Assembly (NCBI GenBank): GCA_036925085.1
Contig: JAUPFP010000032.1
Location: 124,001-188,000, forward strand
DNA length: 64,000 nt
Origin: Brachycybe producta
Lineage: Eukaryota; Arthropoda; Diplopoda; Playtdesmida; Andrognathidae
Direction of reading: 5' to 3'
This document shows, piece after piece, positions 760-62,109 of the stretch. Position numbers and translations under genes: made by a program. The notes below the pieces were generated by a model. The model searched no databases. It saw only the letters and a program-made list of their open reading frames with translations, and had not been told where the DNA came from. Numbering within the stretch: position 1 is the stretch's first letter; each line of letters begins with the position of its first letter.

Positions 760-901
760 ACAGGCAATTAGAAAACGGGATGAACAGAAGTTAGCTCCAC
801 CCTTTTTATGACGGCCGGCAACTTCTAATTGGTTTGTTGTGTGGTTCGTCATAAAAATGGGCGGAGCCAACTTCTGTTCATCCCGTTTTCTAATTGCTTG
901 T
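760..901. mobile_element. Type A foldback MITE, with TSD
   Basis: The element starts ACAGGCAATTAG and ends CTAATTGCTTGT, with inverted arms covering nearly its whole length. Both arms hold a GC-box-like word and GAACAGAAGTT. It is flanked by the direct repeat CCAAAATC. This is the shortest of the nine type A copies listed here. Confidence 0.75.
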
Positions 902-1320
902 CCAAAATCTTGCAAAAACATCCGTGGAGCACAGTATTAGCCACTGCAGTGGCGCCATCCGGTGAGAGAAAAACGTAATAAATATTGAGCCAATTTAAGC
1001 AGGTTTTACTAGTGAAAGTGTCAATGATTTTTGCCGACATTTAGGTTAGTTATCGAGGTTAAGGTCTTCAAGTGATGCCCATTAAAAGTAATTTTTTTAA
1101 AAAAAAAATGTAGATGAAATTAAACATGGTCACGTGGCCAAGGTTGAATCTGGATCACGTGAACAACAACAAGAAGCAGCAGTCATTTGAATAAAAGTAG
1201 ATTGTGATTCAAGTTTGACTGCAAACCAAACCCCACACAATTAAGGTGGTTTTTAAACTGAACTCAGAAACTTGAAATTGTTTTAGAAACTAGAAGGGTA
1301 AAGACCATTTTACACTGAAA
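902..1320. repeat. Type E fragment, otherwise unassigned
   Basis: The stretch 930-1000 holds the type E terminal sequence (CACTGCAGTGGCGCCATC followed by a degraded tail). From 1010 to 1320 no gene or further repeat was recognised. Confidence 0.4.
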
Positions 1321-1660
1321 ATACGTCTTGTTATTAGTAATGTTTTTAACAAGTATTAGCAAATCGGCCTATAAACTGTTATTAACTTTTGTTATCAACT
1401 TTTTTTTTATCGACTTTTTGTTATCGACTTTTGTTGATAACATTTTGCTAGTAACATTATTAAGTCTCTGGAAACGTTAATATTTGCTGTTAACATTGTT
1501 CCAAAGTCTCTAGAAATGTTAATAACATTTGCTGTTAACATTGTTAAAAGTCTTTAGAAATGTTAATAACATTTCCTGTTAACATTGTTAAAAGTTTCTA
1601 GAAATGTTAATAACATTTGCGGTTAACATTGTTAAAAGCCTCTCATCGGCTTTTTTATTT
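1321..1660. repeat. Type D repeat block upstream of PPP1R15
   Basis: Degenerate tandem and inverted copies of GTTAATAACATTTGC and GTTAACATTGTTAAAAG end about 40 bp before the first upstream ORF of PPP1R15. The same family appears at 3436, 21965, 34864, 38341 and 53800. Because it lies so close to the gene, the promoter or 5'UTR probably borders or includes it. Confidence 0.6.
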
Positions 1661-1700
1661 TTATACTAGGTCTTTTTCGGAACTTTACGAGTATTTACGA

Positions 1701-1793
1701 ATGGAACGCTGCGACAATCATGAGAACGTATCTGTTAAACATTCAGCAATAAATTTATTGAACGTAAAAAAAAATGATGTTCGCTACAAGTGA
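1701..1793 (+). promoter_or_regulatory. Upstream ORF overlapping the PPP1R15 start
   Basis: A 30-codon ORF starts at ATG 1701 and ends at TGA 1791-1793. It runs past the main PPP1R15 ATG (1774) in a different frame. A ribosome that translates it cannot reach the main start by simple forward reinitiation. Upstream ORFs control translation of vertebrate PPP1R15A and PPP1R15B in the integrated stress response, so the layout fits the family. That this one is functional is inference, and the transcription start was not seen. Confidence 0.55.
1720..1752 (+). promoter_or_regulatory. Short upstream ORF of PPP1R15
   Basis: A 10-codon ORF starts at ATG 1720 and stops at TAA 1750-1752, nested within the longer overlapping upstream ORF but in another frame. 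It ends 21 nt before the main ATG. Two nested upstream starts before one main start could give graded translation under stress; this is inference. Confidence 0.45.
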
Positions 1794-4207
1794 TAGAAGA
1801 AGACGATCGGACGTTTCATTTCAGTTTCTTCCTAGACATAGTCAAAAGATGTCGGACCGAACAGGAAAAAGTTGTTCCTGGAGCGGAACTTCAACTGTTC
1901 CGTATTTCTCGACAGTCAAGTCGAACAGTTTTAGCTCCGATCGCGTTTTACAACGATGTCTTTCTTTTAATAAGTGCATCGCGTTTCAGAATTCTAGTCC
2001 TTACGTTCCGAATTTTCACGAAAAAACTCTCGATTCCGCAAACTGGAACGAGCCGAGTTTCGAGTTAAAGCAAGGTTTAATCGAAATGTCGATTCCGACA
2101 ACTTACGCTAGTGTAGTTAAGAAGCCGCCGGTTAGCGGCGGCGACGAAAACAAATCCAATAAAGAGAACGTTAAGAAACCCGCTCCAACGAATCGGTTTA
2201 ACAAGTTGGGAATGCCTCTCGGTGTCGGCAGTCTTCCGAACGTGCACGGAAAAGACGTGGGTTCAAATGACGTTTCGGACTTTCCTAATGCGAAAATACG
2301 GATTAAGCAGACAATTAATAAGTTGGACTTGTTGCGTGGATTGATAGGCCTATCTGGTTTTAGTAACGTAGTAAGCGTCGGATTAGGTGGCTCTGCCGAG
2401 ACATTCGGCTGCCGTAGACAATCCGACGAACAGAAACCGTCGGATATCTTACTCGGGCCCGCTTGTAGTAACGAACCGAACTCTATGGATTCAAAGATAA
2501 GTACGGAAGAGACTTCTTGTTTGTCTGAAGATCGTAAACATTCCACCGATGACGACGAATGGACGTCGACCCAAAGTGATTCCAGAGGACACGTTTGCAG
2601 AAATGCGCAAATCGCGTTCATAATGGGGTTCGAGATGTCTAGTTCGGAGGACGAAGATGACGACGATAGTTTTGATGATAACGAATGGGATTTGGTATTC
2701 GGTGAAGGCGATGATACGGAGAAATTGGCAGCTGTGCATGAGGTTCGTGCAGAACAGCTTTACTTTACAGTATGTTAAATTATGTTATATGAAATTACTG
2801 TTGCATTGCGTTACATTACATTGAATCACTTACGTTATATTACGTTGCATTACATCGCCATCGTGTCACCTTACATTACGGCATTACGTTATATTGCAAT
2901 ATACCAATCTATTGGCTGGAACAGTTTTTATGTGAATGTATTTTGATGAATGTTCTTTTACTTGTAAGGAATGCAAATCCAGTGGCTTCACGAAAACAGA
3001 AACGGAAGAATGTGACAGCGAAGACGAGGTCGACTACGCGGTCATTAAGTTAAGCGACGTTTGCTCCAATCCAGAAAGTCTTCTTCCGTTTCATCGAGAA
3101 CTTTCGAACGAATCGCTACGCAAAGTCAACTCAAACTGGGATCGGATTTATGGTGATATCGCTGTAGCGGCAAAGGAAAATCGAAAGGTTTGTGTTTTTT
3201 TTTTTTTTGTATTCGTAACTGAAAATTGTCTAAAATTTCAACGCAAATAAGCAGGAATCGAGAGGAGAAGAAAAAGGTAAAATAGTTTTGAATTTGTCGA
3301 TGACCATCTTGGATTTTGTAGCTCAGGTTGCGATTCGTTGTGGAAACTATTTTTGTATCGCAACATTTGGCAACGTCGTTAGCGGAGATGACACCACGAT
3401 CGCTCCTGTGATTTGTTTTCGAGTCGAAAAGGCCGATTTACACTGAAGAAATAGCAAAAACATTGTTAATAGCAAAATGTTAATTAACAATTTTTTTTAC
3501 TGTTTCTGTTCAATGTTGAAAACAAAATGTGAATAACAATGTTATTGACAAAAATGCTGGTAGCGTGTCGGCATTAAACTGATCCCACGAGCAGGAAGTT
3601 ATTAACAGTGTCAGCAGCAACAAAAAACTTGCTAGTAACATTTTGTTATCAAGATCCTTCAGTCGGGACCGCCTCCAGAAGTTTGTGAAATTGCAGACAA
3701 AACATTAGTATTGTCGCCAATTTGTCTCGAAACACTTGTTTCTGTTTTGTTTGTGTTTCGTCAGCTTGACGTGGATCTGCCTTAAGGTACCGAATCCAAA
3801 ATATATTTCGCCTTTTGCGATTTTACGTGTTAAAAGGTTTCCGGCATATGAATGGAATTTTTTCATCGTAGTGAAAATTGCGTTATAAATACGGTCTTAA
3901 TTTTAACCACAAGTTACGGCTATTGGATTTGTGGAATTTCGGGAGTTCCGACATAAAACGACGACACTTAGTTGCTTTTTTTTTGTGTGTATTGTAGGTT
4001 TTCTTTGCCGATGATGTTTCATTGGTCCTTGTCCACGCTGTGCCTACTTACAACCGCAAAGGTCCATGGGAAGAAGTGGCACGAGATCGTTATCGATTCA
4101 AAAAACGAATCCAAGAAACCGAAGTTGTTCTCGGGAAGGTTTTCGATCCGAGTCATCGGCGAGATGTTTACGAGAAACGGATTTTGCCTTTATATAGCCG
4201 TACTTGA
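1774..4207 (+). CDS. PPP1R15: PPP1R15 (GADD34/CReP-like) PP1 regulatory subunit
   Basis: Three exons, 1774-2769, 2969-3187 and 3998-4207, join in phase 0 to give 474 residues. Family role: it brings protein phosphatase 1 to phosphorylated eIF2alpha and so ends the translation block of the integrated stress response. The C-terminal core shows this. KVFF (about residues 405-408) is the PP1-docking RVxF motif. It is followed by RKGPWEEVARDRYRF, which matches the conserved block that in mammals contacts G-actin and positions eIF2alpha. The N-terminal 330 residues are low in conservation and end in an acidic stretch (SSSEDEDDDD) before LYFT; exon 2 is also acidic. The second intron falls exactly between K and V of KVFF. 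The start is the first of two tandem ATGs. Paralogue 15A versus 15B cannot be assigned; the C-terminus looks closer to 15B. Confidence 0.93.
3436..3790. repeat. Type D tip and type K fragment in PPP1R15 intron 2
   Basis: From 3436 the sequence carries the type D tip (GAAGAAATAGCAAAAAC) and internal words. From about 3690 to 3785 it carries one end of another repeat also seen in thymidylate synthase intron 5 (TTTGTCTCGAAACACTTG, GTCAGCTTGACGTGGATC). Neither is complete. Confidence 0.5.
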
Positions 4208-5009: not shown

Positions 5010-5739
5010 CTTAAGAGGCTACCATCGTTACCGCGCTAGCATCGTTTTTCTATTGAACCCATAGAGCCAATGTTAAAGAAGAAACGTTAATTTTTAAAAT
5101 TACACAGTCGCGGCGGCAATATGTTTTTTTTTCATATTTAAAGTTGTCCAATTTTGAAGGTTCAAAGTGCAATGTGCACCTTAAATATATGCTGATCTAG
5201 TGATAGAATGACAAAAAATTGGTAAATGTTTTTCTATTTTTAAAAACTATTTCAAAATCGCGAATTTCTAACTTTTGTTAAATTCCATTCAGTTACGCCC
5301 AAATAAGAAACAACCTCCATCAAAATGCTCGTAAAAATACGTAAAAATAATTTTAAAAAAATACACCGCGCACAATGTATTGGCTTCACTGTGGTTTTTA
5401 AAAATAATTTTTGCATATTTTTACCAACATTTTAATGGGTATTTTTTCTTACATGAGTTAGAAATTCGCGATTTTGAAATAATTTTTAAAAATAGAACTG
5501 CAATTATCAATTTTTTGCCATTCTATCACTCGATCAGCCTATATTTAAGGTGCGCATTGCACTTTGAACCATCAAAATTGGACAACTTTAAATATGAAAA
5601 ATATATTGCCACTGCGACTGTGTATTTTAAAAACTAAAGTTATTTCTTTAACATTGGGTCTATGGGCTCAATAGAAAAACGATGCAAGCGCTCTTTGCGG
5701 AGATTTTTCGAAGTAATTTTGCGATGTTAGCCTCATAAG
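5010..5739. mobile_element. Type F long foldback element, copy 1
   Basis: Two inverted arms of about 330 bp start with TTAAGAGGCTAC and end with TAGCCTCATAAG. Shared arm words are GCTAGCATCG, GGTTCAAAGTGCAATG and ATATATGCTGATC. Three more copies are at 18942, 50926 and 57600. No transposase was seen, so the element is non-autonomous. Confidence 0.75.
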
Positions 5740-12047: not shown

Positions 12048-13553
12048 GATTTCACTAAAAATTAACAGCAAATTTCTCTCAGCGTCCTAAAAACTACTTT
12101 CCACAACGCAAAAATCAACCACTGCAACGAAATGATCCATAAAACCCATTTAACAGAAGCGCTTTACGTTTATTCTTAGTTAATCAAAGTTGTAGCCTCG
12201 TCCTAAACGCCAGTAATAAGTTCTAGCCTCACAGAATTTTCATTAAAAAAAAAATTGTGCGAAAGAAAATCAATTGAAAAGGCTCGTTAGAGGCTAGAAT
12301 TAAGCTGAAATTAATATAGGCTGCGTTTTAATTCTTTATAATTCATAGCCTCTAACAAGGCTGTTTTATTGCAAAAAGCGTAATTCTTTGTTGAAAAGGC
12401 AAGGGCTTCATTGAATCATTTCAAAACGACTATATAGAGGCTACGAATTAATAAGATTGCAGTAGTATGGATAGAGGCTAAATGACGTTTCTCATAAAAA
12501 GGGCGGGACTGTATTCTACTGAGTACGCTTGCCTGTGTCAAAATAGCCTCAAACACAACCTCCACCTGGCCACGCTGTCATAAAAATGACTTCTTATGAG
12601 CTTTACAAGTATGTCTACGACTGCGTGATGAGGTTTGTTGTATTAGAGGCTACTTTCGACGGTTATTCACTGAAGCTGCCGAAGCCTTCATTCTCTTCAA
12701 TAGGAGGTTAACAAGGTAAATACCGTTAAGCGTAAAAGTTATCGGAATTTATCATTGTTTTTAAAGACAGTTTGTTTAAATATTAATGTGATAAACTTAA
12801 TCGTGTTTAACGTGAGAGAAACACGTGCAAATTGTAAGTATTAAGAGGTAAAACGTCTTTTGTTCTTTCTAAATATTGCGTTCGTTTCCGGATAATAAGT
12901 TTCTATTGTTATTTCCGATTTTATTCTTGTTGTTCGCCTTGAAAGTACATTTTTTTTCCATATATTTTGTCGATTTCTATGTTAGATTTTGCACGTTTTT
13001 GTTGCGTTTTATTGTCATTTGATTCGTTTCGAAACGGAAGAGAAATTGGATGAAATGGCGCCGAATGAAAACATGACGGTTTGGCGGGAAAAATGATTAA
13101 TTCCGAAGAAAAAAAACTGCGGAAATACGGTATTTTTTCGATTAGGAGCCACCAGCCACCGTTTTAAAGCTGAGGGTTGCGTTAATGGCGTGTAAAAGCC
13201 TTTAAAGGTAAATCATAAAGGGGAAGTGGCGCCTAATTGAAAGAATTTTTCCGAAAAAAGTCGCAGAAATGGTCAAAACGGCGCCAAATAGAAACATGAC
13301 GGTCTTTTTGTCGTTGAAAATGATAAATTGCGGAAAAGAAACGGTTGAAATGGTATAAAATTCCGAACAAAACGTGGAAACGGGGTATTCTTCTTCGATA
13401 ATGCACCGTGCATTTTCGGGAATCTTAATTTTGTCATGTCGCTTGATTACGTTTCCGCATTTTTCCGGTTTTTGTAGATTTTACGATCGTCTATATTAAC
13501 TGTTTTTTTTTTTCAATTTACTTTTAGCGAAGTTTTCCGTACTTATGTAAGTA
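12048..13553. promoter_or_regulatory. Divergent LMF2/NCAPH2 intergenic region
   Basis: This 1.5-kb stretch separates the LMF2 start codon (12047) from the NCAPH2 start codon (13554). CTTTTAG at about 13524-13530 is a good splice acceptor just before the NCAPH2 ATG, so an upstream non-coding exon is likely. AACAAGGTAAAT near 12710 is one possible donor. Half a type B MITE lies at about 12495-12539. The block 13050-13400 holds two diverged copies of a segment with GGCGCC and ACATGACGGT. Confidence 0.5.
13080..13091 (+). promoter_or_regulatory. E2F-like site upstream of NCAPH2
   Basis: TTTGGCGGGAAA fits the E2F consensus (TTTSSCGC-type core) and lies about 460 bp before the NCAPH2 start codon. 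Condensin genes are cell-cycle regulated in animals, so an E2F input would be natural. No footprint is visible beyond the motif match. Confidence 0.4.
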
Positions 13554-16500
13554 ATGGGATCTCAAGAAGAAGCGATAGGCTGTGAAGTGGATACGGAACG
13601 TTTTGCACACTTTTTGAATCCGATCCGTGATCTTGCAAAGAACTGGGAGATAGACATTGCAGCCTATCTCGAGGAATACATAACAGAAGTTCGTATACGG
13701 AAAAAACGTCAAAAACGTCAATCGAACGTGTTTTAGACACAACATTACAAAACAAATTCAAATAATTTACAAAACTAGAATGGTTAAAGATGATGCTAAA
13801 AGTTTTTTCGTGGCAATATCTTGAAAAATGAACAATTTTATAGTTCAGTTTGAAAAATGACCCGTTTTTTTTAGTTTTTCCATTGAAATTTCAAGAAAAA
13901 CTCTTTTCGGCCTTTTTCAGACTGTCAAAAAGTTTATTTTGAAAGATATCATCATGAAAAAACTTTTAGCATTATAACGAACTATTCTAGTTTCTAAAAC
14001 ACTTTGAATTTTTTGTAATGTTGTTTCTCCTGAAAACCGTTCGCTTGAAAAATTAAAATGTTCTCAAAACTGCAGGTGGAGAGGGAAGAGACCTCTTATA
14101 GAACATAATAGCCACTGGCGCCACCTGGGGGCGTACGAAAACAAGATAAATATCTATAAAGCCACCTTAACACGAAATAGATCGGACCGGCATATTTTTT
14201 TGTGCGAAACGAGTTTTGTCTTAAAAAGAATTTTTTTTTTTTCTGTTTTTTCGTTTCAAGCTCGAGCATGTAGCCATAACGTTCGATTGTGGCAAAACCG
14301 TTATGAATTTTGCCGATGCGGCTCTGCTGATTCAAGGCTCCGCTTGCGTCTATAGCAGAAAGGTGATGTTAACGGAATCTTTTTCGATGCGTCGAACTAA
14401 TCAACTAACAAACCTTTTTTTAACTTTTCTTACTAAAGGTGGATTTTCTTTATAACCTCGTTTTGCAACTTCTCGATGTCGTTCGGTGTTCGAAGTAAGA
14501 ATTTGCGAGGCTCTTGTATCTTTCAATTTGTGTTTTGGTGAAATTCTTGATGTTTGCTTTCAGAAAACAGAGGCAACAGAAAAAGCACGACTCCAGCAAC
14601 AGTTTGAACGAAAATACGTCACAGGTTGAAAATGTATGGACAAATTTATATCGTTATTTTAAATTCTAAGTACGAATATGAGACGGAGGTTAACTTGCGA
14701 TCCTTTTAGTTTTCGAGGTTACCTCGTAAATTGTTCTTTAATCAAGCCGATTTTGCCAAAATGTTTTTTGCCGCTTTTACTACTAATCGGCAAAAAACGG
14801 ATCGGCGAACAAATTTTAACCGGTTTTCGATCATTAACGCACTCAACAATTAGGTCTGCTTTCCGATATAATCTGACTTGGTCCTTTGCAGCTTTGGAGA
14901 GGGGGAGGGAGCAATTGCCCTCCCCCAACTCATATGCCTGTGTGTACAGCCTACAATTTCTGTACGAGAAATCGGTTGTGAAACAAACTCCAGCAGTGAA
15001 AATCGGCATGATCGGCTTGGTTAAATCAATCCCGCATGTGAATTTTTTTTTTTTTTTTTGTGTGTGTGATCGGTTTGGTGTTGGCTCGGTAAAAAAAGTG
15101 TGATTGGTAAAACCTTACTTTGAATATTATTCAACCGAACAACTTTAAATGTCGGCTATAAAATAAGAATTTCTTGTATTGTACTATACAAGAACACGAA
15201 TTTGACGTAAACGATAACATTTTTATTTCACTCCAGTTCTTAACTCTCGACAACTGCGACGTTCAACAGAACCTTAACTTTAAAGAAACTGATGCACCGT
15301 CTTCAAGTTCTCAGTTACTTTTGCCCTGCACACCGTGTTCCGTAATTCCTCTCGATAGCGAAGAAAGGAACGAAAGTTATATTAAAACGTGAGTTGTGGT
15401 TTCGGATGTCTTTCTGTTTGGGTACATCGTTGATAATTTTGCTCATCGTGTCGAAAATTACAGCGAGAAAAATGAGTTGCTTGGCTTTAAAACTGATTTC
15501 TCGTTGAATTCGATGGAAGTTGATCTTCGCGGAAGTGTGTCTCACGATATTATTTTGTCTACGTCGGATGTTTTTGGTTCACCACCGGAATTGCCAGGTA
15601 ATTTGAACCGTTTATTTAGAAATGTTTTTAGGCAAAGTGCCGGTAATACCGTTCGACTTGTAAAAATGCCGCACAAAAGCAAAAATTATTTTTTAAAAAC
15701 TACCTTTTTATCGCATCTTTTTTAATCAGCTTGCAATTAAGTAACCTGGCGTTTTTGTATCACGAAATTAACGTAGCAAATATTTTATTTTACGTTTACA
15801 GTTTCGTTGATTGAACCAGAACCACAGCCACCACCACCTCCCGATCCGGAGGAATTGGATGATGATTTTGGTATTACGATACGTTTATTTTAAGTTTTAC
15901 ACGTGTGCTTCATGTTGTCGTGTTCTAACTTTCGAGGAGGGTTTAATTATAGCTTAGACTATTACTTTACTTGACTGGCAAATCCTTGTTAAAGCGTTGA
16001 ATGCATGTTCTTAGGCAAAAGTGATGCCAGCTCCGTCTGGTGCATTATTTTTACAGAAAAGTCTTTTTTTTTGTGTGGTTCAACGTTGATTGATGTGACG
16101 TCAGAGTACATAACCAACCAATTAGAAATTGCGTTCGTCATAAAAAGGGCGAAGACAACTTCTGTTCGTCCCTCCCGATTTCTAATTGCCAATGTAGTTC
16201 TTCATCGGCCATACTTTTTATACTAATATATAAAAATACACCCTATATAGCTACAAAATGAACTCGTCCAATACTTGACTTTTACTATCAAGTTCATATA
16301 CGATAGTCCCGCTAGAGGCGCCTCTTGGATAACGACGATGCAAAACTGTCAAACACAAAATTTCGGGAGTTGCCAGTCCAGTAAAGTAATAGTCTAAGAT
16401 TATAGTTTATGCGTACTGACATTAGTAACCTCGCAATGAATACACTCGTACCTCGCTATATGGCCGCTCTTTATACGGCTTTTCGCTATAACGACCTTTT

Positions 16501-23514: not shown

Positions 23515-23719
23515 ACAGGTAGTTAGAAATCGGGGAGAACTTCAGTTGGCTCCGCCCTTGTTATGACGACCAGCAACTTCTATTTGGTTTGTTGTGTGGT
23601 TCGACATTGAAAAGGGCAGAGCATATGACGTCAGACTACATAACCAACCAATTAGAAGTTGCCGGTCGTCATAACAAGGGCGGAGCCAACTTCTGTTCGT
23701 CCGATTTCTCATTGCCTGT
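23515..23719. mobile_element. Type A foldback MITE
   Basis: Ends ACAGGTAGTTAGAAATCGG and GATTTCTCATTGCCTGT. The arms contain GGCTCCGCCCTTGTTATGA and its complement, and the centre contains TGACGTCA. The target duplication is not clear (TTCATTC / TTCATAA). Confidence 0.7.
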
Positions 23720-23867
23720 TTCATAAACGTCTGAATATGAAATGATTTGGCTCTTAGGTGTGGGTGGCGCCATCTATTGGCTACATTCGGATATTTCAGA
23801 GAATGTTTGATAGTAAGAGAAATTTATAAAGGTAAATGAACTTCGTGTTAGAAAACCACGTCAAAAG

Positions 23868-24058
23868 GCAGGCGTCTGTAGACAGCTTCAGAATTTTTTT
23901 GGCTCCGCCCTTTTATGAGCGTCAGATAATATCAACCAATTAGAACTAAAATGGGCGGAGCACGTGACATCAGACCCAGTAGCCAACCAATTAGAAATTG
24001 GTGACGCTCATAAAAGGGTGGAGCCAAAGAAATTCTGAAGCTGTCTACAGATGCCTGT
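23868..24058. mobile_element. Type C foldback MITE with 9-bp TSD
   Basis: The left end GCAGGCGTCTGTAGACAGC and the right end GCTGTCTACAGATGCCTGT are inverted. The flanks are a perfect 9-bp direct repeat, CGTCAAAAG. The core resembles types A and B (GGCTCCGCCCTTTTATGAGC, CCAATTAGAA). Confidence 0.85.
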
Positions 24059-25929: not shown

Positions 25930-26955
25930 ACGAAGCCCTGTAAAGGACATGCACAAAATTAAATAAAGTTAAACAAAAAAAAGATATGGCCACAGTTAAG
26001 GCACCACTTGTGGCGCCAAAAAAAGATACGGCCGCACTTACGGCCGCACTTACGGCCGCACTTACGGCCGCACTTACGGCCGCACTTACGGCCGCACTTA
26101 CGGCCGCACTTACGGCCGCACTTACGGCCGCACTTACGGCCGCACTTACGGCCGCACTTACGGCCGCACTTACGGCCGCACTTACGGCCGCACTTACGGC
26201 CGCACTTACGGCCGCACTTACGGCCGCACTTACGGCCGCACTTACGGCCGCACTTACGGCCGCACTTACGGCCGCACTTACGGCCGCACTTACGGCCGCA
26301 CTTACGGCCGCACTTACGGCCGCACTTACGGCCGCACTTACGGCCGCACTTACGGCCGCACTTACGGCCGCACTTACGGCCGCACTTAAGGCCGCATTTA
26401 AGAAAAAAGATGGAGCTTACGAATGCATTTTGTCTAGAGTTCGTTTGATAATCAATTATGAAATATGTTTTCAATGATACTGATGTATGTCTTGTTTTTT
26501 TTTTACCAAATACGCTCATAAAAATATGGGGAAAATATCGTTTGCTATCTCTTTCAATATATCATCTGTCATTTGTGTGTGTTCATTTGTAAATATATTG
26601 TATGCACATAAACACACAGGCGGTTGGGTTCAGCACAAAAACCCCTGTTTATGAAGGACTGCAATTTCTAATTGGCAAACGAAGTTTTTGTGCTGAATCC
26701 AAAGCCTGTCACAAATACTGTGACACAGTAGTCAGTTTAGTCAAATAGCCAATGTTTATCACCTTATACACCATCTAGTGTGAGAAATCACAAACTTACA
26801 TTTTTGTTGACAACTTTTTCCTTAAGTGCGGCATTAAGTGCGGTCGTAAGTGCGGCCGTAAGTGCGGCCGTATCTTTTTTTGACGCCATAAGTGGTGCCA
26901 TATCTTTTTTTTTTAACTTTATTTAATATTGTGTATGTCCTTTACGGGGCTTCGT
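25930..26955. mobile_element. hAT-like foldback with 8-bp TSD and satellite arm
   Basis: The left end ACGAAGCCCTGTAAAGGAC and the right end GTCCTTTACGGGGCTTCGT are inverted, with perfect 8-bp flanks ACCAATAT. The arms continue inverted through AAATAAAGTTAA and AAGATATGGC. The left arm then holds the 12-bp satellite in about 31 copies, the right arm only about 4. A small nested foldback lies at about 26615-26710. No transposase. Confidence 0.8.
26027..26400. repeat. 12-bp satellite, ~31 copies
   Basis: Near-perfect head-to-tail copies of TACGGCCGCACT; only the last two units differ. The 12-bp period keeps several frames open on both strands (LTAA, LRPH and KCGR peptides), so the long ORFs here are artefacts of the repeat. 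Confidence 0.95.
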
Positions 26956-27090
26956 ACCAATATGATACAATCAAAAATCGTGCCAATTCAATGTTTTTGA
27001 TGTTTTTCAATATATCGAGTACGATATTTTAAAAAATATCGATATATCGAGAACTTTGGCCGCCCTGTTAGATAAACGGTTCTTTTACAT

Positions 27091-27268
27091 TCAAGTAAGC
27101 GCAGTAAAATAGTCGTTTGCCCCGATCTTTTATGAGAAACGGCAGCTTTCCAATAGGTTTGTTATTTGGCCTGACGTCACATGCTCCGCCCTTTTCAATT
27201 TCTATTTAGTTGACGCTCATAAAAGGGGCGACGCGAACGACTGTGTTTTACTGCGCTTACTTGCCTGT
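27091..27268. mobile_element. Type B MITE upstream of ILRUN
   Basis: Inverted ends (AAGTAAGCGCAGTAAAA on the left, TTTTACTGCGCTTACTT on the right) with a type B core including CTGACGTCAC and GCTCCGCCC. It lies about 410 bp before the ILRUN start codon. Confidence 0.65.
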
Positions 27269-27329
27269 GTGCTTTTTTTTAGTTGATCTGCGTGTATGTA
27301 AATGGTTTTGCTCGGCGCTCGCTACGAAA

Positions 27330-27520
27330 CTGGCAAGTGTAAAGCAGTAAAATTTCTTTGGCTCCGCCCTTTTACGAGCGTCAGACCAAATATCATCTAA
27401 TTAGAATTTAAAAAGGGTGGAGCATGTTACGTCAGACCAAGTAACGAACCAATTATAAATTGATGACGTTCATAAAAGTACGAGATCAACAAAATGTTAC
27501 TGCTGCGTACACTTGCCTGT
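27330..27520. mobile_element. Type B MITE next to the ILRUN promoter
   Basis: The left end TGGCAAGTGTAAAGCAG and the right end CTGCGTACACTTGCCTGT are inverted. The core holds GGCTCCGCCCTTTTACGAGC. It ends about 156 bp before the ILRUN start codon, which puts it in the proximal promoter. Confidence 0.65.
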
Positions 27521-27676: not shown

Positions 27677-30600
27677 ATGGAAGTGGACAACGACTTAGAT
27701 CAGAATCTGTTACAACAGTTCAGCTGTATGGGAACAACGGATAAGGAAGTTTTAATTTCACAGCTTCAAAAACTAGTTGGCAACCAATTGAACGATGCGG
27801 GATGTGCGTTTTTCCTCGATATGAACAACTGGTGAGTAACGGACTAAAAAACATCCCTATCTATAGGGATTTTTTCCTTTCTCATAGGGATTTTTCGATC
27901 GGTTACTTCCTCCTTTCTCTATGGATCTCAATGGACGTGTCTGGAATCGATTACTCTCTTCAGAGTGATCCTTGTGATGAAATATCAAAACAAAACCGAG
28001 ATTTACGTTGTTTTTGATCCATTTTTCTGAGATTAAAACCCGATAAACGCTTAATTGATAATTCAGACATGTTGTCATTATTTTTAGGTCGTTGTTTAAG
28101 CCATTTATGATCGTAATTCGGTTAGAAAAACGTCAGTTTTTGTCAAATTTTGATGAAAAATATCGTAGAATTCATTTAAAACTGAAAGACAAGACCAAAA
28201 AAATGAATCAAAATGTTTTAATTCACATTCATAATACAAATCTGGTTAGAAATATGCTGAAAACCGAGCAAGAAACGCGAAATTCATAAGAGAAACAATT
28301 AAGAAAAAGATCTGTAATGTAGAAACATGTCTGAACATGCTTCGAAACATGTCCAAACATGTTTTGAAACATTTAATCCAATTTGTACTCAAATGCAAAA
28401 GGTGGATAAATTCCCAGTTATTTAGACGAAGTTCAGACATCAATATCAAATTAAATTCGTTCTAAAACAGAAATGTCTGTAGGAAGAGAATTCCATAGTC
28501 TAAATACATTTGGAAAGAAACGACGATACATGTTCATTGTTTTGGCGTGTTCGAATCATATTTTAGAACTGATTTCGAGCAGTCTGACAAAAACTCGTCT
28601 TGTAATGGTTTCAAAACATGTTCCTGGTGCCGAAAAGAACATGAATTACCAGCCGAAGGAGAGTTTTTCTCCTGTCACAGGGCTCGCTAGCGGTTTGCTG
28701 ATGTATTTAGTTAAATTGAACACGAGCACCAGATCACTTTGCAACCAATACTCATCACTGATGAGCGAAACGATAATTTCGATAAAAGAGTCGTAACCGT
28801 GTCGAGCACCTTGAAGTTGTGAAATTTATTTCCAAATTGTTATCTGATTTTGCTAGGAATCTTCAAGCGGCAGTTTGTTCGTATTTCGACTACGAATCGC
28901 CGAGAGACAAATTACCTTTCATGGCCTTCGTTCGTGATGTCACGATCGGAGACGGAGAATCCGTTCCTCCGAACACAAAATTCATCAAGACTTGGAGGGT
29001 ACAAAACAGCGGTTAGTTTTCAACGCCGTTATTTCAAAAACCGTCTTTCACACATTGTTACATTTTCTTATAATTTCAGGAGACGAACAATGGCCTCCCG
29101 GATGTTGCCTAAAGTTCACACACGGAGAACGGTTAGGGTTACAAGACAGAGTTCTCGTCGATTCTCTGAATCCCGGCGACGTTACGGACATAAGTGTCGA
29201 GATGACGAGTCCCGAGAAGCCGGGAATGTATCAGGGACAATGGAGGATGAGTACGGCGACCGGATTCTATTTCGGAGGTCAGTTTCGCTATTTTCGATAT
29301 GAGGTCCTGAGGACATTTCCCGATACATTTTTTTTCATATTTCAGAAGTGATTTGGGTGATCGTAACGGTGGCCGAAGGTGGGATTCTGAGCCTTACTCA
29401 ACAGATGTCTAAATTTCACGAATTGGGTTCTCCGCCTAAAACGTCTTTACAAGTTGCGAATCCGTTCGCATCTTCGAACGGTACGGTTACGCTTCTTGTA
29501 AAACACCTTGTATAAACCGGAAACCTGTATAAATCGGAAACGGAAGGCAATTTCCAATACAAATGTAATACAGTAATACCTGGATAAAACGGATTCTTTA
29601 TAAAAACGGAAAAACCTGGCTAAACGAAAAGGAAATCGGGGAACTTGCCCTATTAAGTTTGGGCTTTACGTACCTCTATAAAACGGAAAACTGCTAGATG
29701 GAAAAACTGGAACAGCGGGATTCCGTTTTATCCAGGTTTTGTCGTACTTATTTTGGTCATTTTTAGGATGTTATGGTTATATATGGCAAAAAATCTCGGC
29801 TTTACGTTTTGAGTTTATTAAAAAAAAATAGATTATTTTAACTATTAAGACAAAATTGAGAAATTGATACATGAAAAATTTGGAATTGGATTCAGGAAAG
29901 TTTTTCGAATCGGATATAGATGGCGCAAATAAATCAGCACAAAGTTCGTCAATAGGCAAGTGTGCCCAGCAGTAAAATTTTGTTGGCCCCGCCCTTTTAT
30001 GAGCGTCAGACCAAATATCAACCAATTAGAAATAGAAAAGGGCGGGCATGTGACATCAGACGAAGTAACAAACCAATTAGAAATTGATAGCGCTCATAAA
30101 AGGGCGGGGCCAACAAAATTTTACTGCTGGGCACACTTGCCTGTGTTCGTTACGTTTTCAACCGCCATCTTTGCGGAGAAACGCACTCAAAATTTCAGAC
30201 AGACAATTAGAAAACGGGATAAACAGAAGTTGGCTACGCCCTTTTTATGACGAACGCAACTTCTAATTGGTTGGTTTATGTAGTCTGACGTCACATGCTC
30301 CGCCCTTGTCGAACCCCACACAACGAACCAATTAGAAGTTGCCGGTCGTCATAAAAAGGGCGGAGCCAACTTCTGTTCATCCCGTTTTCTAATTGCCTGT
30401 AAATTTCAGTGCGTTTTTGGAAGCCAATCGAAGTGGTCGATGTACACTTAATGGGAAAAGTGGAATACTACTACTAAACATGAATTTTTTAAAATCCTTT
30501 CGTTTTTGAAATAGGAAACGTAGTGGCAATGCCGAACGGTGTGAGTAACACGAATTGCACGCCGACCGTGACGATGGCGAATGCAAAAAGTCCGTTAAAT

Positions 30601-39372: not shown

Positions 39373-39931
39373 TAGTTATTAACATTTTGCTACTAACAAT
39401 TTTTTTGTTGCTATTTCTTCCGTGTAAATCTACCTTTTTTTTTTGTGAAAATATCGAAATTTTTAGTCGTTTGACCACTGGTAAGAAGGGCCTTGTTTCC
39501 AATCGTGTGAAAATTTGAACTTTTTGAAAGTTTCAACTGGTGAAAAATTAGAGCACACGTGGCCTTTACCGATTATAGTGAATGGGCGGTTGAGAAGGGG
39601 GAGGGGTGGGAGGAGGGTCACATGTGTTCAATTTTTCACCAGTTGAAATTTTCACTCCAGTGGAAACGAGGCCCTCTATCATTTGAAATAGGAAAATTTG
39701 GATATTGTATTATATGGTATTTTAAACGGAAAAAAACTAACAATTTTGTGGGTAAAAAAGAATAGTTTCGAACATATATATTGTATGTATGTATCATGTG
39801 CACATTTTATATTGAAAAATTAAGTGTAATATATAAATTTATATAAAAAAAGAGAAATGAATAGAAAGCGTGCATTTTCAAAAAGGTTGTAAACGCCACG
39901 TAAGGGTGAAATAAAGTTTTGAGTCGAAAAA

Positions 39932-40129
39932 AGCATTTGTAGACAGCTTCAGAATTTCTTTGGCTCCGCTCTTTTTATGAGTGTCAGACTAAATATCAAC
40001 CAATTAGAAATAAAAAGGGCGGGGCTTGTGACATCAGACCCTGTAACTGTGTAACACACCAAGTAAAAATTGATGACGCTCATAAAGGGCGGTGCCAAAG
40101 AAATTCTGAAGCTGTCTACAGATGCCTGT
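39932..40129. mobile_element. Type C foldback MITE
   Basis: Left end AGCATTTGTAGACAGCTTC and right end GAAGCTGTCTACAGATGCC are inverted; the core has GGCTCCGCTC and CCAATTAGAAA. No clear target duplication. Confidence 0.7.
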
Positions 40130-40174
40130 AAAATGGTTGTAAACGCCATGCTTTTTGACACGGGGAATTTGGTT

Positions 40175-40361
40175 GACAGGCAAGTGTGCCCAGCAGTAAA
40201 ATTTTGTTGGCTCCGCCTCTTTTATGAGCGTCATCAATTTCTAATTGGTCTGATGTCACATGCCTCGCCCTTTTCAATTTCTAATTTTCGTTGATATTTA
40301 GTCTGACGCTCATAAAAGGGGCGGAGCCAACAAAATTTTAATGCTGGGCACACTTGCCTGT
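40175..40361. mobile_element. Type B MITE with perfect 9-bp TSD
   Basis: Starts ACAGGCAAGTGTGCCCAG and ends CTGGGCACACTTGCCTGT; flanked by ATTTGGTTG on both sides. The best-preserved type B copy here, 187 bp. Confidence 0.9.
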
Positions 40362-41034: not shown

Positions 41035-41232
41035 ACAGGCAGTTAGAAATCGGTCAGAACTTCAGTTGGCTCCGCCCTTGTTATGACGACCGGCAACTTC
41101 TAATTGGCTCGTTATGTAGTCTGACGTTGAAAAGGGCGGAGCATGTGACGTCAGACCAGCCAATTAGAAGTTGCTGGTCGTCATAACAAGGGCGGAGCCA
41201 ACTGAAGTTCCGACGGATTTCTAACTGCCTGT
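41035..41232. mobile_element. Type A MITE with perfect 9-bp TSD
   Basis: Starts ACAGGCAGTTAGAAATCGG and ends TTTCTAACTGCCTGT; flanked by AATGCTATA on both sides. The insertion lies within a type E element end (CAGTGGCTAATGCTATA), so it is younger than that element. Confidence 0.9.
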
Positions 41233-41826: not shown

Positions 41827-45132
<3,306 letters not shown>

Positions 45133-50153: not shown

Positions 50154-50361
50154 ACAGGCAATTAGAAATCGGGACAAACAGAAATTGGCTCCGCCCTTTT
50201 TTATGACGACCGGCAACTTCTAATTGGTTGGTTATGTAGTCTGACGTCACAGACTCCGCCCTTTTCAACGTCAAATGACACAACAAACCAATTAGAAGTT
50301 GCCGGTCGTCATAAAAAAGGGCGGAGCCAACTTATGTTTGTCCCGATTTCTAATTGCCTGT
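50154..50361. mobile_element. Type A foldback MITE
   Basis: Starts ACAGGCAATTAGAAATCGGG and ends CCCGATTTCTAATTGCCTGT, with CTGACGTCACAG in the middle. Target duplication eroded. A partial type B copy follows at about 50385-50550. Confidence 0.75.
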
Positions 50362-50611
50362 CGTAAACCTAACAGACATCTCAGAGGCCCAGCAGCAAAA
50401 TGTTGTTGGCCCACCCCTTTTATGAGCGTCATCAACTTCTAATTGGTGTGTTACTGGGTCTGATGTCACATGCCCCGCCCTTTTCAATTTTTAATTGGTT
50501 GATATGCGGTCTGACGCTCATAAAAGGGCGGGGCCAACGAAGATGCCTGTTAATTTTACAGTTAGAAAATAAAAAATGCCTGATTTTGAATTATATATTA
50601 AAAAAATTAAA

Positions 50612-52261: not shown

Positions 52262-52612
52262 ATCGGTACGGAACTGGTTCAGTGGGTTCGGGACCGGTTC
52301 AATGGGTTCGCGACCGGTTTAATGGGTTCGCGACCGGTTTAATGGGTTCGCGACTGGTTTAATGGGTTCGCGACCGGTTTAATGGGTTCGCGACCGGTTC
52401 AATGGGTTCGGGTTCGCGACCGGTTCAATGGGTTCGGGTCCGGTTCAATGGGTTCGGGTCCGGTTCAATGGGTTCGCGACCGGTTCAATGGGTTCGCGAC
52501 TGGTTCAATGGGTTCGCGACCGGTTCAATGGGTTCGGGTCCGGTTCAGTGGGTTCGGGTCCGGTTCAATGGGTTCGGGGCCGTTTCAGTCGGCTGGCGGC
52601 CGTTTCAGTCGG
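52262..52612. repeat. 20-bp minisatellite, ~17 copies
   Basis: Head-to-tail units of the form AATGGGTTCGCGACCGGTTC, with CGCGAC/CGGGTC and GGTTC/GGTTT variants in runs. The surrounding words match the GGTTC-rich repeat at 21558. Open frames here follow the repeat and are not genes. Confidence 0.9.
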
Positions 52613-52905
52613 TCGTTTTATTCGGCTTTATTGATATTAGCAAAATACTATACTTCTAATTTTTAAAAGACTACTTTTTTATGCAAGTTCGTTTTGTCGC
52701 GCCGAGCGCAGCCTGTTTTTTTTTCTGCGCGCGGTCACTGCGCCAATTTTTGAACGGCGTAGGATCCATGTGGCTGCCGATTTTATTTTGCTATCGGCTC
52801 CCACCTCTACTTGTAGTTTGTCTGGGGTTAACTATAACCTTGGTTAGGTAACTGCAGTTAATTTTTGTGGTGGAAATGGGGTAAACCAGTTAAATACTCA
52901 TTGTC

Positions 52906-53110
52906 ACAAGCATTTAGAAATCGGGACGAACACAAGTTGGCTCCGCCCTTTTTATGACGCCCGCCAACTTCTAATTGGTTTGTTGTGTGGTTCGACGTTG
53001 AAAAGGGCGGAGCATGTGACGTCAGACTACATAACCAACAAATTAGAAGTTGCGTTCGTCATAAAAATGGCGGAGCCAACTTATGTTCGTCCCGATTTCT
53101 AAATGCCTGT
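52906..53110. mobile_element. Type A MITE, 9-bp TSD with one mismatch
   Basis: Starts ACAAGCATTTAGAAATCGGG and ends CCCGATTTCTAAATGCCTGT; flanks CTCATTGTC and TTCATTGTC. TGACGTCA lies in the core. Confidence 0.8.
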
Positions 53111-53799: not shown

Positions 53800-54380
53800 T
53801 GTTGACAACAGGAATCACTTGCTAGTAACATTTTATTATCAATATCCTTTGACCGCGGACCGCCTTTAGAGCGGTCGCGAAAATGTCTGCTATTAACAAA
53901 GTTAGTAACAATATTATCAACATGTTAATGGAAAAAAGTAACAATTGCTGAAAGCAAATGTTATTGACAAAGGTTAATAGCAAAATATCGTTTCTAGAGA
54001 CTTAACAATGTTAATAGCAAATGTTACCAACAAATGTTGATAATAAAGTTAATAGCAAAATGTTATTAACATTTCTAGAGACTTTTAACAATGTTAATAG
54101 GAAATGTTACCAACAAATGTTAATAATAAAGTTAATAGCAAAATGTTATTAACATTTCTAGAGAATTTTAACAATGTTAATAGCAAATGTTATCAAAATT
54201 TGTTGCTAGCAAAATGTTATTAACATTTCTAGAAACGCTTAACAATGTTAATAACAAATGTTGATAAAAGTTAATCACATTTCATAGGCATAGGAAATGT
54301 GATTAACTTTTATCAACATTTGTTATTAACATTGTTAATATTTAAAAAAAAACATTGCTAATAACACGTGTTTTCGCAAT
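53800..54380. repeat. Type D repeat block
   Basis: Contains GAGCGGTCGCGAAAATG, repeated AATAGCAAAATGTTATTAAC with AACATTTCTAGAG, and an internal palindrome at about 54258-54340 (AACTTTTATCAACATTTG and its inverse). Confidence 0.65.
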
Positions 54381-54814
54381 GTTACCGCTGTAACGCGACG
54401 GAAAGCAGAAATGTAGCAAACATTTAATTTCAAACCATTTATTTATTTTCTGCATTTTTAATGTATGTGGGATTCAGGCTTGATTCTCATACTGTCACTT
54501 TTTAACTAATTATTATTTTTTTGGTTAAAAAATGATTGCATTTCTCGTAATACCTTTACACCTTTTATATGGCGTGGGTGGTGGTGGCGGCGGTGCTCAT
54601 GACGACATTTGTGACGTCAGTGGTGTGTTCCAAGTGACACAAACACCCACAGCTATTTTATCTTTCAAATGCAAATGAAGCCAAAAATAATTGTGGCGAT
54701 AATATATTTATATAATAATTTGACCATATGGTAGGGAGATAGTACGGAGCACTGTTGAGGACATCAATTATTCTTTTTTTTTTATCTCGTCCGGACATAC
54801 AGACGTCTCTCTGT

Positions 54815-54990
54815 CCAATGCTCAGCACTAACTTTTCGTTTGATCCGCCCTTTATGAGCGTCAGACCAATTAGAAATTGAAAAATGGGCGCGGCTTGTGA
54901 CATCATACCAAATAACAAACCAATTAGAAGTTGCCGTTTCTCATGAAAGGGCGGGGCAAACGACTGTCTTCTACTGAGCACACTTGGCCT
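54815..54990. mobile_element. Type B foldback MITE, degraded
   Basis: Left GCTCAGCACTAACTTTTCG and right CTACTGAGCACACTTGGCC, with the type B core (CGCCCTTTATGAGCGTCAGACC, shortened). The ends are imperfect. Confidence 0.5.
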
Positions 54991-55039
54991 GCGCTGCATG
55001 CCGATTGCAGTGCCATCTACTGTATACCAGTTTTTTGAG

Positions 55040-55219
55040 ACAGGCAAGTGTGTTCAGCAAGATGCAGTCGTTTGCCCCGCCCCCTTTATGAGGAACGGCA
55101 ACTTCTAATTGTTTTTTTTGTCTGACGTCATATGCTCCGCCCTTTTCAATTTCTATTTGGTTTGACGCTCATAAAAGGGCGGGGCAAACGACTGCACCTT
55201 GCTGAGCACACTTGCCTGT
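55040..55219. mobile_element. Type B MITE with imperfect 9-bp TSD
   Basis: Starts ACAGGCAAGTGTGTTCAGC and ends GCTGAGCACACTTGCCTGT; flanks TTTTTTGAG and GTTTCTGAG. Core CTGACGTCATATG and GCTCCGCCC. Confidence 0.75.
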
Positions 55220-56101: not shown

Positions 56102-56599
56102 TTCTTTTAAGCAAAAAAAATTATTTTTAAGCAAAAAAAATTATTTTTAAGCAAAAAAAATCATTTTTATGCAACAAAAAAAATCATTTTTATGCAACAA
56201 AAAAAATCATTTTTATGCAACAAAAAAAATCATTTTTATGCAACAAAAAAATCATTTTTGCTAAAAAAATCATTTTTATGCTAAAATTAAATTCATTTTT
56301 GCTAAAAAGAAATGAAACTCATTTTTGCTAAAAATAATTTCATTTTAAAAAAAATGTTCAAAATTCTAAAAAAAATAGAAACTTTTTATAAAGTGAAATA
56401 ACATTAAATTTTATCCTAAACAAATTACCATTTTTTTCCGAAAATATCAAAGAAATATTTCTTTCTTTCTTTTAAAAAGCATCAAAGAAAGTCATGAATA
56501 CAACAAAAAATAACAAAGAAATTCACGTTTTTTCTTAAAATAATTTAGTCTTATATAAAAGCGTAGAAATTTTCAATTATTCTAAATTCTTATAAATTA

Positions 56600-57045
56600 A
56601 AATTAAAGTTAAATTAAAGTTAAATTAAAATAAAATAAATTAAAACTTAAATTAAAACTTAAATTAAAATAAAATAAGTTAAAATAAAATAAGTTAAAAT
56701 AAAATAAGTTAAAATAAAATAAGTTAAAATAAAATAAGTTAAAATAAAATAAGTTAAAATAAAATAAGTTAAAATTAAATAAGTTAAAATTAAATAAGTT
56801 AAAATTAAATAAGTTAAAATTAAATAAGTTAAAATTAAATAAGTTAAAATAAAATAAGTTAAAATAAAATAAGTTAAAATTAAATAAGTTAAAATTAAAT
56901 AAGTTAAAATTAAATAAGTTAAAATTAAATAAGTTAAAATTAAATAAGTTAAAATTAAATAAGTTAAAATTAAATAAGTTAAAATTAAATAAGTTAAAAT
57001 TAAATAAGTTAAAATTAAATAAGTTAAAATTAAATAAATTCAAAA
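56600..57045. repeat. 15-bp AT minisatellite, ~29 copies, two variants
   Basis: Head-to-tail units of TTAAAATAAAATAAG or TTAAAATTAAATAAG. The two variants occur in blocks rather than mixed, which suggests block-wise duplication. The long minus-strand open frame (N, L, F and Y only) is an artefact. Confidence 0.9.
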
Positions 57046-57164
57046 TTTTTAAAATTAAATTTTTAATTAAATATGACTTTTTTTAATAATTATTACAATA
57101 TTAAAGTTTCTGCTATTTTTTTCTTTATCTTAGAAAATTGTAAATTGCCGCTTTTTTTTTACAA

Positions 57165-57490: not shown

Positions 57491-57599
57491 ATAATGAAAG
57501 GCGGTCGAAAGAAAAAATGAGAAAAAGTTTTATTCAAGATATTATTTAATGTAAATTCCACTTGTGATTATGTTTCAAAGCAAATCTCGATTGTCGCAA

Positions 57600-58246
57600 A
57601 ATCGCAAAATTACTTCGAAAAATCTCCACAAAGACCGCTAGCATCGTTTTTCTATTGAGCCCATAGACCTGATGTTAAAGAAAAAAACGTTAATTTTTAA
57701 AAATACACAGTAGCGGCGGCAATATGTTTATTTTTCATATTTAAAGTTGTCCAATTTTGGTAGTTCAAAGTGCAATGTGCACCTTAAATGTATGCTGATC
57801 GAGTGATAGAAAGACAAAAAATTGGGAAGTGAATAAAAAATATTTCAAAATCGCGAGTTTCTATTTCTCATGTTAAACTCCATTGAGTATGCGCTTGTAA
57901 GCAAAAAGCATCTATTAAAATATGGATGTTTTTTGCTTACAAGCGCATACTCAATGGAGTTTAACATGAGAAATAGAAACTCGCGATTTTGAAATATTTT
58001 TAATCACTTCCCAATTTTTTGTCATTCTATCACTCGATCAGCATACATTTAAGGTGCACATTGAACTACCAAAATTGGACAACTTTAAATATGAAAAATA
58101 AACATATTGCCGCCGCAACTGTGTGTATTTTAAAAATTAAACATTTTTTTCTTTAACATCGGGTCTATGGACTGAATAGAAAAACGACGCTAGCGCTCTT
58201 TGTGGAGATTTTTCAAAGTAATTTTGCGATGTGTAGCCTCTTAAAA
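57600..58246. mobile_element. Type F long foldback element, copy 4
   Basis: Arms of about 310 bp are almost perfectly inverted around 57920 (ATGGATGTTTTTTGCTTAC at the centre). The best-matched arms of the four copies, so perhaps the youngest. Confidence 0.8.
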
Positions 58247-60475: not shown

Positions 60476-60479
60476 TGCG

Positions 60480-60541
60480 ATAAGACTGTCCTATGACAGT
60501 AAATTATGAGTCATAATTTACTGTCACAGGATAGTCTTATC
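60480..60541. repeat. Hairpin with ~29-bp arms
   Basis: ATAAGACTGTCCTATGACAG and TAAATTATGA are followed by an inverted copy with one or two mismatches. Confidence 0.65.
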
Positions 60542-60544
60542 TCA

Positions 60545-61240: not shown

Positions 61241-61254
61241 CTTCAATTTTAAGT

Positions 61255-61565
61255 GTCACGTGATCAAAACTACAAAATGAAAGATGCATCTTAAGACACA
61301 TGCATTAGAAATTAGAATTAGAATTTCTTTTGCTCCGCCCTTGTATGACTTCAGGATAAGTTACATACCAATCAGAAATTGATTAGTCATAAAAGGGCGG
61401 AGCAAAAGAAATTCTAATGCTGGGCACAATTGCATGTGTCTTAAGATGCATTTTTCATTTTGTAGTTTTGATCACGTGATGATCACAAAATGTCTTAAGA
61501 TGCATTTTTCATTTTGTAGTTTTGATCACGTGATGATCACAAAATGTCTTAAGACCAACCCAGGT
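61255..61565. repeat. Composite repeat with duplicated 54-bp segment
   Basis: GTTTTGATCACGTGATGATC and TGTCTTAAGATGCATTTTTC are tandemly duplicated (about 61440-61555). An inverted partner lies at about 61258-61300. Between them is a type B-like foldback (61310-61435). Confidence 0.55.
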
Positions 61566-61570
61566 TTTAG

Positions 61571-61943
61571 AACAGGCAGTTCTTCTGCCCAGCTCTAAGT
61601 TTTCGTTTGCCCCGCCCTTTTATGAGCATCATCAATTTCTAATTGGTTGATATTTGGTCTGACACTCATAAAAGGACGGGGCAAACTAAAAGACAGGCAA
61701 TTAGAAAACGGGATCAACAGACGTTGGCTCCCCCCCTTTTTATGATGAATGCAACTTGTAATTGGTTGGTTATTTAGTCTGACGTCACATGCGCCGCCCT
61801 TTTCAACGTCATCAGACTACATAATCAACCAATTAGAAGTTGCCATTCGTCATAAAAACGAATCTGTTTATCGAGTTTAACGAGTCTGTTTATCCCGTTT
61901 TCTAATTGCCAGTAACTAAAAGTTTGTGCTGGGCAGAGAGAGA
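61571..61943. mobile_element. Type B-like MITE split by a type A MITE
   Basis: Left AACAGGCAGTTCTTCTGCCC and right TTTGTGCTGGGCAGAG flank, in order, a type B core and the type A insertion at 61693-61913, whose 9-bp target duplication AACTAAAAG lies within the type B arm. Confidence 0.65.
61693..61913. mobile_element. Type A MITE with perfect 9-bp TSD
   Basis: Starts ACAGGCAATTAGAAAAC and ends GTTTTCTAATTGCCAGT; flanked by AACTAAAAG on both sides. Core CTGACGTCACATG. Confidence 0.85.
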
Positions 61944-62109
61944 ACAGATAGTTAGAAATAAGTGAAAACTTCAGTTGGCTCCGCCCTTGTTATGACGACT
62001 GGCAACTTCTAATTGGCTGGTTATGTAGTCTGACGTTGAATAACCAGCCAATTAGAAGTTGCCAGTCGTTCTAACAAACTGAAGTTTTCACCTATTTCTA
62101 ACTGCCTGT
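61944..62109. mobile_element. Type A MITE, short copy
   Basis: Starts ACAGATAGTTAGAAATAAG and ends TATTTCTAACTGCCTGT, 166 bp. The central GC-box/CRE part is deleted. Confidence 0.65.

Follow-up and report, generated by a model that had tools for sequence, protein, structure and literature searches.

In the usual family of miniature inverted-repeat transposable elements (MITEs), the middle varies, but the ends, being read by the transposase, are constant. Different terminal inverted repeats (TIRs) around an internal region that is highly conserved across families have been described for the CMITEs of Acropora corals (PMC2872659), elements of about 100 bp with TIRs of 13-14 bp, a TTAA duplication and a piggyBac-like origin; all that they share at their ends is the short motif CC[C/T]T, copies occur in tandem arrays, and one element carries the core of another family. 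In Drosophila mojavensis, Galileo, a member of the P superfamily with 7-bp flanking sequences and 2-TIR copies averaging 1.7-2.2 kb, is divided into TIR subfamilies, and one central region occurs with the TIRs of three of them (PMC3573991). Here, we describe 26 copies of one palindromic MITE family with ACAGGC/GCCTGT ends in a 64,000-nt stretch of the genome of Brachycybe producta (Diplopoda; assembly GCA_036925085.1, contig JAUPFP010000032.1, positions 124,001 to 188,000), referred to as the window. The middle of the element is largely constant across copies, and a segment, usually of 25 nt, between ACAGGC and the core varies in version.

As in the CMITEs, the inner region of the family in the window was more conserved between types than the tips, and a short end motif was common to the types. 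Unlike the CMITEs, it had a 9-bp duplication, ACAGGC ends, a length of about 180-220 bp and a near-complete palindrome, and its copies lay near each other and not in head-to-tail arrays; since the CMITEs belong to piggyBac (TTAA), the family falls outside them, though it works in the same way. With Galileo it shared a common middle under different ends and the occurrence of chimeric copies, whereas the varying TIR ends of Galileo extend over hundreds of bp and those of the window family over 25 nt (PMC3573991). Its most frequent duplication length, 9 bp, was not the 7 or 8 bp of Galileo and the P superfamily. The Tm1 Mutator/Foldback elements of root-knot nematodes include MITE-like members and have 9-bp duplications and foldback-like TIRs of conserved and variable motifs (PMC3169594); the duplications and foldback-like TIRs are as in the window family, but the terminal motifs (CGGTTAA, CCTACCC and GGA) and the TIR tandem units (mostly 14 bp) differ, and no common core under different tips is described in the part of that paper used here. 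Muta1 and other Mutator-like elements (MULEs) of Aedes aegypti have 8-9 bp duplications, subterminal repeats, TIRs over 100 bp in 12 of 14 families, and many non-autonomous derivatives (PMC5225508), which share a common TIR and differ inside, the reverse of the window family. Excision of Muta1 has been assayed in yeast. Among metazoan Mutator/foldback elements with duplications of 8-9 bp, Tm1 and Muta1 came nearest in the open-licence literature, and searches of it listed no other family of such design (subscription papers and Repbase were outside the search). The original prediction, made from the DNA without database searches, knew of no described family of this design. CMITEs and Galileo are precedents; a similar design is already described in corals, and the window family is an unusual variant in another duplication class (9 bp, not TTAA).

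The copies were collected with an iterated profile made from six seed arms, which gave 52 matches at E ≤0.01, some of them inner parts only; arms outside the seed set matched the six-seed profile with E down to 6.5e-23. Matches were grouped into sites, and arms into types, by eye, giving 24 sites and two nested copies with 4,367 bases in all. Types were assigned to 39 of the 52 matches; the other 13 were inner parts, truncated or odd arms, and the arms called E and F. Counted from the end, an arm consisted of ACAGGC (columns 1-6), a tip (7-31) and a core (32-93) with the recurring words GGCTCCGCCC, TTTTATGA, TTCTAATTGG and GTCTGACG. The mean column information of the profile matches was 1.73, 0.78, 1.35 and 1.47 bits for columns 1-6, 7-31, 32-60 and 61-93, respectively. 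MITEs are short, numerous elements without coding capacity, with TIRs and a target duplication of constant length, and the family belongs with them: full-length two-ended copies measured about 180-220 bp, and types A, B and C had 9-bp duplications. Both copies that were folded (41035..41232 and 29952..30144) formed near-complete hairpins, with z of -22 and -15, and the core was part of the palindrome. These profile matches bore out the ACAGGC-like ends and the common inner words that had been predicted for types A, B and C, the cores of A and of B/C/D being alike at 74 to 85% of compared positions. Instead of the three predicted types, there were at least six tip versions: A1, A2, B1, B2, C and D. 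An anchor word for measuring tip length was present in 35 of 40 arms examined and absent in five. The tip was 25 nt in 28 of these 35 arms, 25 by script and three more after reading (arms 29952, 30144 and 61693, to which the script had given 24 nt before the anchor was correctly placed); the remaining seven tips were 24, 23, 18, 7, 28, 28 and 29 nt (one 28 scored as 27 by the script). In all six types, 25 nt was the usual length.

Between types, the tip was less similar than the core rate predicts in all 15 pairs (binomial P 6e-3 to 4e-9, with columns taken as independent). The consensus sequences matched at 17/25 tip and 60/62 core positions for A1 and A2, 14/25 and 59/62 for B1 and C, 12/25 and 38/43 for B1 and D, and 8/25 and 48/62 for A1 and B1. 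The consensus tips of A1 and A2 matched those of B1, B2, C and D at 6 to 10 of 25 positions, which is the shuffle level (P 0.16 to 0.64); the B1, B2, C and D tips matched each other at 11 to 16 of 25 (shuffle P 0.0002 to 0.036), and those of B1, C and D were related at 12-15. Descent of the A and B/C/D tips from a common source, as read from columns constant in the six consensus tips, was not used because the overall likeness was at the shuffle level. Within types, tip and core diverged about equally overall when 32 of the 39 typed arms were compared (seven decayed or chimeric arms left out; core columns 32-58): tip and core agreement was 0.88 and 0.89 in A1, 0.75 and 0.79 in B2, 0.91 and 0.91 in C, and 0.96 and 0.96 in D, with departures in opposite directions in A2 (0.86 and 0.96) and B1 (0.92 and 0.86). 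This indicated that the tips are not mutational hot spots and that the difference arose in the source elements; hypermutation of tips after insertion was thus rejected. The two arms of the same copy agreed in 392/437 tip and 392/456 core cells (18 copies), and tip agreement was lowest in the chimera at 23515 (17/24), the copy at 44265 (18/25) and the decayed F copy (17/25). Origin of the A1 tip from the inner CCAATTAGAA word is a weak lead: this tip has 9 nt in common with the core (28 of 2000 shuffles reach this), but A2 and the other tips have no such word in common with it.

Sorting of copies by type was analyzed with the closest pair of arms as the distance and with labels shuffled among copies, E and F being left out. 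For B1, C and D, the tips differed by 0.136 within and 0.425 between types (P = 0.0002) and the cores by 0.124 within and 0.131 between types (P = 0.38; n = 11 copies in both, with low power for the core). The histories of tip and core are decoupled for these three types. A1 and A2 were sorted by tip (P 0.012) and not by core (P 0.17; nine copies), and B1 and B2 by tip (P 0.008) and by core (P 0.046); core sorting of B1, B2, C and D together gave P 0.054. When all six types were taken together, the cores were sorted (0 of 20,000 shuffles), since A stands apart in its core as well: it departed from B/C at fixed core positions (about columns 53-60), and its inner TTCTAATTGG units were inverted in all six full-length copies scored (inverted score 18-26, direct 4-7). 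The direct score exceeded the inverted one in 9 of 10 full-length B/C copies, by a margin of only 2 points in two of them; in the copy at 50372 the scores tied at 5, although its words have the same orientation. Not only the tip but also the inversion of one inner unit therefore separates A from B/C, and the statement that types differ only in the outer 15-30 bp does not hold for A.

The copies and their flanking duplications are listed below; no strand is assigned.

760..901, A1, core partly deleted; duplication CCAAAATC 8/8, or TCCAAAATC 9/9 with the element's last T excluded (one-base shift)
12481..12536, B2, single arm
16080..16194, A1, one arm and part of the core
23515..23719, chimera by reading, left tip A2-like and right tip A1-like; flanks matching 2/9 at the exact boundary, or 7/9 after a shift by 2 bases, which scores under the 95% point of random placements
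23868..24058, C; duplication CGTCAAAAG 9/9
26616..26709, D, core largely deleted; duplication 7/9
27087..27268, B2; duplication 7/8
27329..27520, B1, 60 bp past the preceding copy; no clear duplication
29952..30144, B1; duplication 7/8
30199..30400, A1, 54 bp past the preceding copy; duplication AAATTTCAG 9/9
39929..40129, C; no duplication found (3/9)
40176..40361, B1, 46 bp past the preceding copy; duplication ATTTGGTTG 9/9
41035..41232, A2, near-complete hairpin; duplication AATGCTATA 9/9
44088..44221, D, left end lost
44265..44407, D, single inner unit, right arm read as partly B2-like; no duplication found
44505..44684, C, right end an internal ACAG, the arm's outer 14 nt missing; duplication AGTTGATGG 9/9
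50154..50361, A1, directly adjoining the next copy; duplication 8/10
50372..50550, B1, right tip cut to 7 nt; 5/8 at the boundary
52906..53110, A1; duplication 8/9
54809..54991, B2, left end degraded; no duplication found
55040..55219, B2; duplication 7/9 at the exact boundary
61298..61437, degraded (F), right tip like that of B/C; boundary flanks 8/10
61572..62109, composite, E-type left tip (28 nt) and A2-type right tip; GGTTTTAGA duplication around the whole, with one extra base on the right
61693..61913, A1, nested within the E copy's right tip; duplication AACTAAAAG 9/9
61944..62109, A2, sharing its right end with the E copy; lacks its own duplication
62555..62674, B1, left arm and part of the core

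Among the 22 two-ended copies, flanks matched in at least k-1 of k bases at the exact boundary in 0, 0, 3, 7, 1, 0 and 0 copies for k = 6 to 12, so that the mode of the duplication was 9 bp (seven copies at 9, three at 8 and none at 7). The best flank score exceeded the 99% point (6.4) of 2000 random placements in 10 of the 22, and a usable duplication was absent from the copies at 27329, 39929, 44265, 54809 and 50372, the nested copy at 61944 and the chimera at 23515. The seven copies matching at k = 9 were exactly the seven places at which the original prediction had reported 9-bp duplications, with 9/9 at 30199, 41035 and 61693 (A), 40176 (B), and 23868 and 44505 (C), and 8/9 at 52906 (A). 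A 9-bp duplication was common to A, B1 and C; together with the common ends, this fits one kind of transposase. MULEs have target duplications of 8-10 bp and long TIRs, these being over 100 bp in PMC5225508. The duplication length of the window family lay within this range, whereas the paired arms were somewhat shorter than 100 bp and did not strictly reach the TIR length of MULEs. Judging from the duplication length and the long inverted repeats, the family may be moved in trans by a Mutator-like (MULE/Phantom) transposase.

Direct evidence of exchange was limited to two chimeric copies, 23515..23719 and 61572..62109. Chimeric Galileo copies have two different TIRs and no matching duplication (PMC3573991), and the same signature, unlike tips without a boundary duplication, was seen in 23515..23719. 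The composite 61572..62109 holds two nested A copies; since one of them, with its own duplication, sits inside the right tip of the E copy, that copy is the younger and the E copy the older. On a simple reading, the composite would have formed by insertion of A2 into the tip and subsequent loss of a short stretch between two AACTGCCTGT words, an order of events deduced from the present arrangement. For 44505..44684, either a move from a cryptic end or a later 14-nt loss between two CTGT words would account for the right end, and the sequence cannot tell them apart: the full C arm, as read from the C copies, has CTGT words 14 nt apart, and loss between them gives the same product.

The copies were also clustered. 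Nine of the 23 gaps between sites were ≤150 bp (1.35 expected under uniform placement, a null that ignores exons and chromatin; 0 of 20,000 simulations as high), and five inter-copy gaps were 43-60 bp (0.28 expected for 40-70, a range picked after looking). The five close pairs lay at 27268-27329, 30144-30199, 40129-40176, 44221-44265 and 54991-55040, a pattern that would arise if each copy drew the next insertion to a fixed distance. The spacers between close neighbours showed no evident likeness by eye, and since several neighbours also had duplications of their own, the close copies look like separate insertions. MITE insertions that cluster and nest are known from carrot (PMC3695323). Close neighbours give copies a chance to recombine, which fits the chimeras; the two chimeras and the tight pairing hint at the route of tip exchange. 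As a separate observation, the word CGCCATCT/AGATGGCG, which we take to resemble the CTCF core motif, occurred 17 times outside the MITE copies (e.g., AGATGGCG at 23768, 29918, 30163, 41003, 62154 and 62516), seven of them within 120 bp of a copy (1.2 expected). Several of the AGATGGCG words sit in another repeat, in a context like CAGATGGCGCCACTGCAGTGGCTA. Gathering of copies at these words was suggestive but was set aside, since the words were chosen after looking and several of them lie in that other repeat.

We tentatively favour, by a narrow preference, a single non-autonomous palindromic MITE family in which the core is a docking region and the 25-nt tip a changeable linker of fixed length. 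The cut would be made at the end ACAGGC, and the transposase or a host factor would dock at the repeated core words, which would be constrained for that role. The intervening 25 nt would serve mainly as a linker with a sequence free to change; the core starts after 31 bp, which would correspond to about three turns of the helix. Arms may copy each other by fold-back, and copies may recombine or insert into each other; a changed tip would appear at both ends because of such arm-to-arm copying and inter-copy recombination or insertion, and each successful tip version would then expand as its own subfamily. Nearly as good, and held with comparable reserve, is the alternative that the tip is a transposase binding site, its versions tracking several related Mutator-like transposases that diverged in specificity, with the core kept for another function (e.g., promoter- or enhancer-like) or by recombination between tip families. 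The core words may be likened to a GC box, a CCAAT-like word and a CRE. The tips are sharply clustered and conserved within type, and the positions that B1, C and D tips retain in common are what related binding sites would show; the authors of the Galileo study have proposed that its TIR subfamilies have distinct transposases (PMC3573991). This alternative, however, needs a second function or repeated recombination to account for the kept core, and the copy at 44505 speaks weakly against it, as this copy may have moved without the outer 14 nt of its right arm, unless they were lost later. Both explanations need a transposase, and none of any type was seen by Pfam in 40 of the 70 stop-to-stop open reading frames (ORFs) of ≥90 aa in the window; the remaining 30 (many of them antisense to a retroelement, overlapping MITE copies or low-complexity-looking) and ORFs of <90 aa were outside the scan. 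The single transposase originally proposed agrees with the common ends and the 9-bp duplication of A, B1 and C, but was not itself seen in those ORFs. On reading the window's arm list, no long element flanked by paired arms was seen, nor was an autonomous copy seen in the window. These negatives count against the docking and linker explanation as well, as do several other points: the conservation of tips within types is also expected if they are specific binding sites; the tip of A did not change alone, given its core and inner-unit orientation; B1 and B2 differ in the core; the decoupling in B1/C/D comes from 11 copies with low power; and 44505..44684 may have suffered a deletion after insertion, which leaves the support from this copy weak.

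Divergence of tips and cores by descent as ordinary subfamilies, with unconstrained tips changing faster and no exchange of parts, seems improbable. It would fit the mostly constant tip length, the graded likeness among B1, B2, C and D, and the differences in both tip and core between A and B/C and between B1 and B2; however, the B1/C/D cores differ as little between types as within them, against a threefold difference for the tips, two chimeric copies exist, and unconstrained tips would not stay matched at both ends without copying. Stepwise change fits the related B/C/D tips, mostly constant in length, as well as swapping does, so that the earlier proposal that tips are exchanged while the core is kept is supported by the decoupling in B1/C/D and the two chimeras but is not the only account of those tips. 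Very unlikely, in our view, is the capture of the same core by separate transposon families, through copying of sequence of host or foreign origin into the interval between the inverted repeats of each. Repeated capture would give a common core under different tips and was raised for corals by the authors of the CMITE study (PMC2872659), but the same ACAGGC end, the same duplication length in A, B1 and C and the mostly 25-nt tip in six types argue against it, as do the relatedness of the B/C/D tips and the place of the core within the palindrome.

Pfam matches above cut-offs in the 40 ORFs were to reverse transcriptase, endonuclease, thymidylate synthase, lipase maturation factor and an NBR1-type Ig domain. 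With a thymidylate synthase exon, lipase maturation factor exons, the Ig domain and the retroelement described next, this content marks the window as eukaryotic and probably animal. The endonuclease and reverse transcriptase domains lay in two overlapping frames of a non-long-terminal-repeat retroelement (35095-38252, minus strand). Rfam gave no matches at gathering scores, ARAGORN found no genes in the window, and a promoter scan, which covered 200 bases only, found nothing. The core patterns were absent from viral contigs in two scans, and a single 20-base match in prokaryote genome contigs, in a Clostridia metagenome contig, was taken as chance. Other repeats in the window were a second long inverted-repeat set (5079-5738, 19000-19696, 50928-51684 and 57598-58230; sites 80-95% complementary), tandem arrays at 25943-26470 (12-bp unit), 56540-57134 (15 bp), 52194-52638 (20 bp) and 21952-22726 (about 154 bp), the last with relatives near 38340-38500 and 53935-54300, and the dispersed repeats D9, D14, D16 and D18, with 9 to 13 places each between 360 and 63722 and words such as GTTTTAGAAACTAGAA and AAAGTTTATTTTGAAAGATATCAT.

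A two-module element, with a fixed docking core and, at about three helical turns from the cut, a 25-nt end cassette that can be exchanged, is an unlikely form for the family; if it were true, both end cassettes could be replaced together, and the family could switch its transposase partner or escape repression without rebuilding the element. As far as the open-licence literature was searched, this is the second case, after the coral CMITEs, in which a MITE core is conserved and the inverted repeats diverge; such a case would suggest a recurrent evolutionary route, not a coral oddity. The reversal of the usual MITE pattern makes it testable which part of the element the transposase needs.

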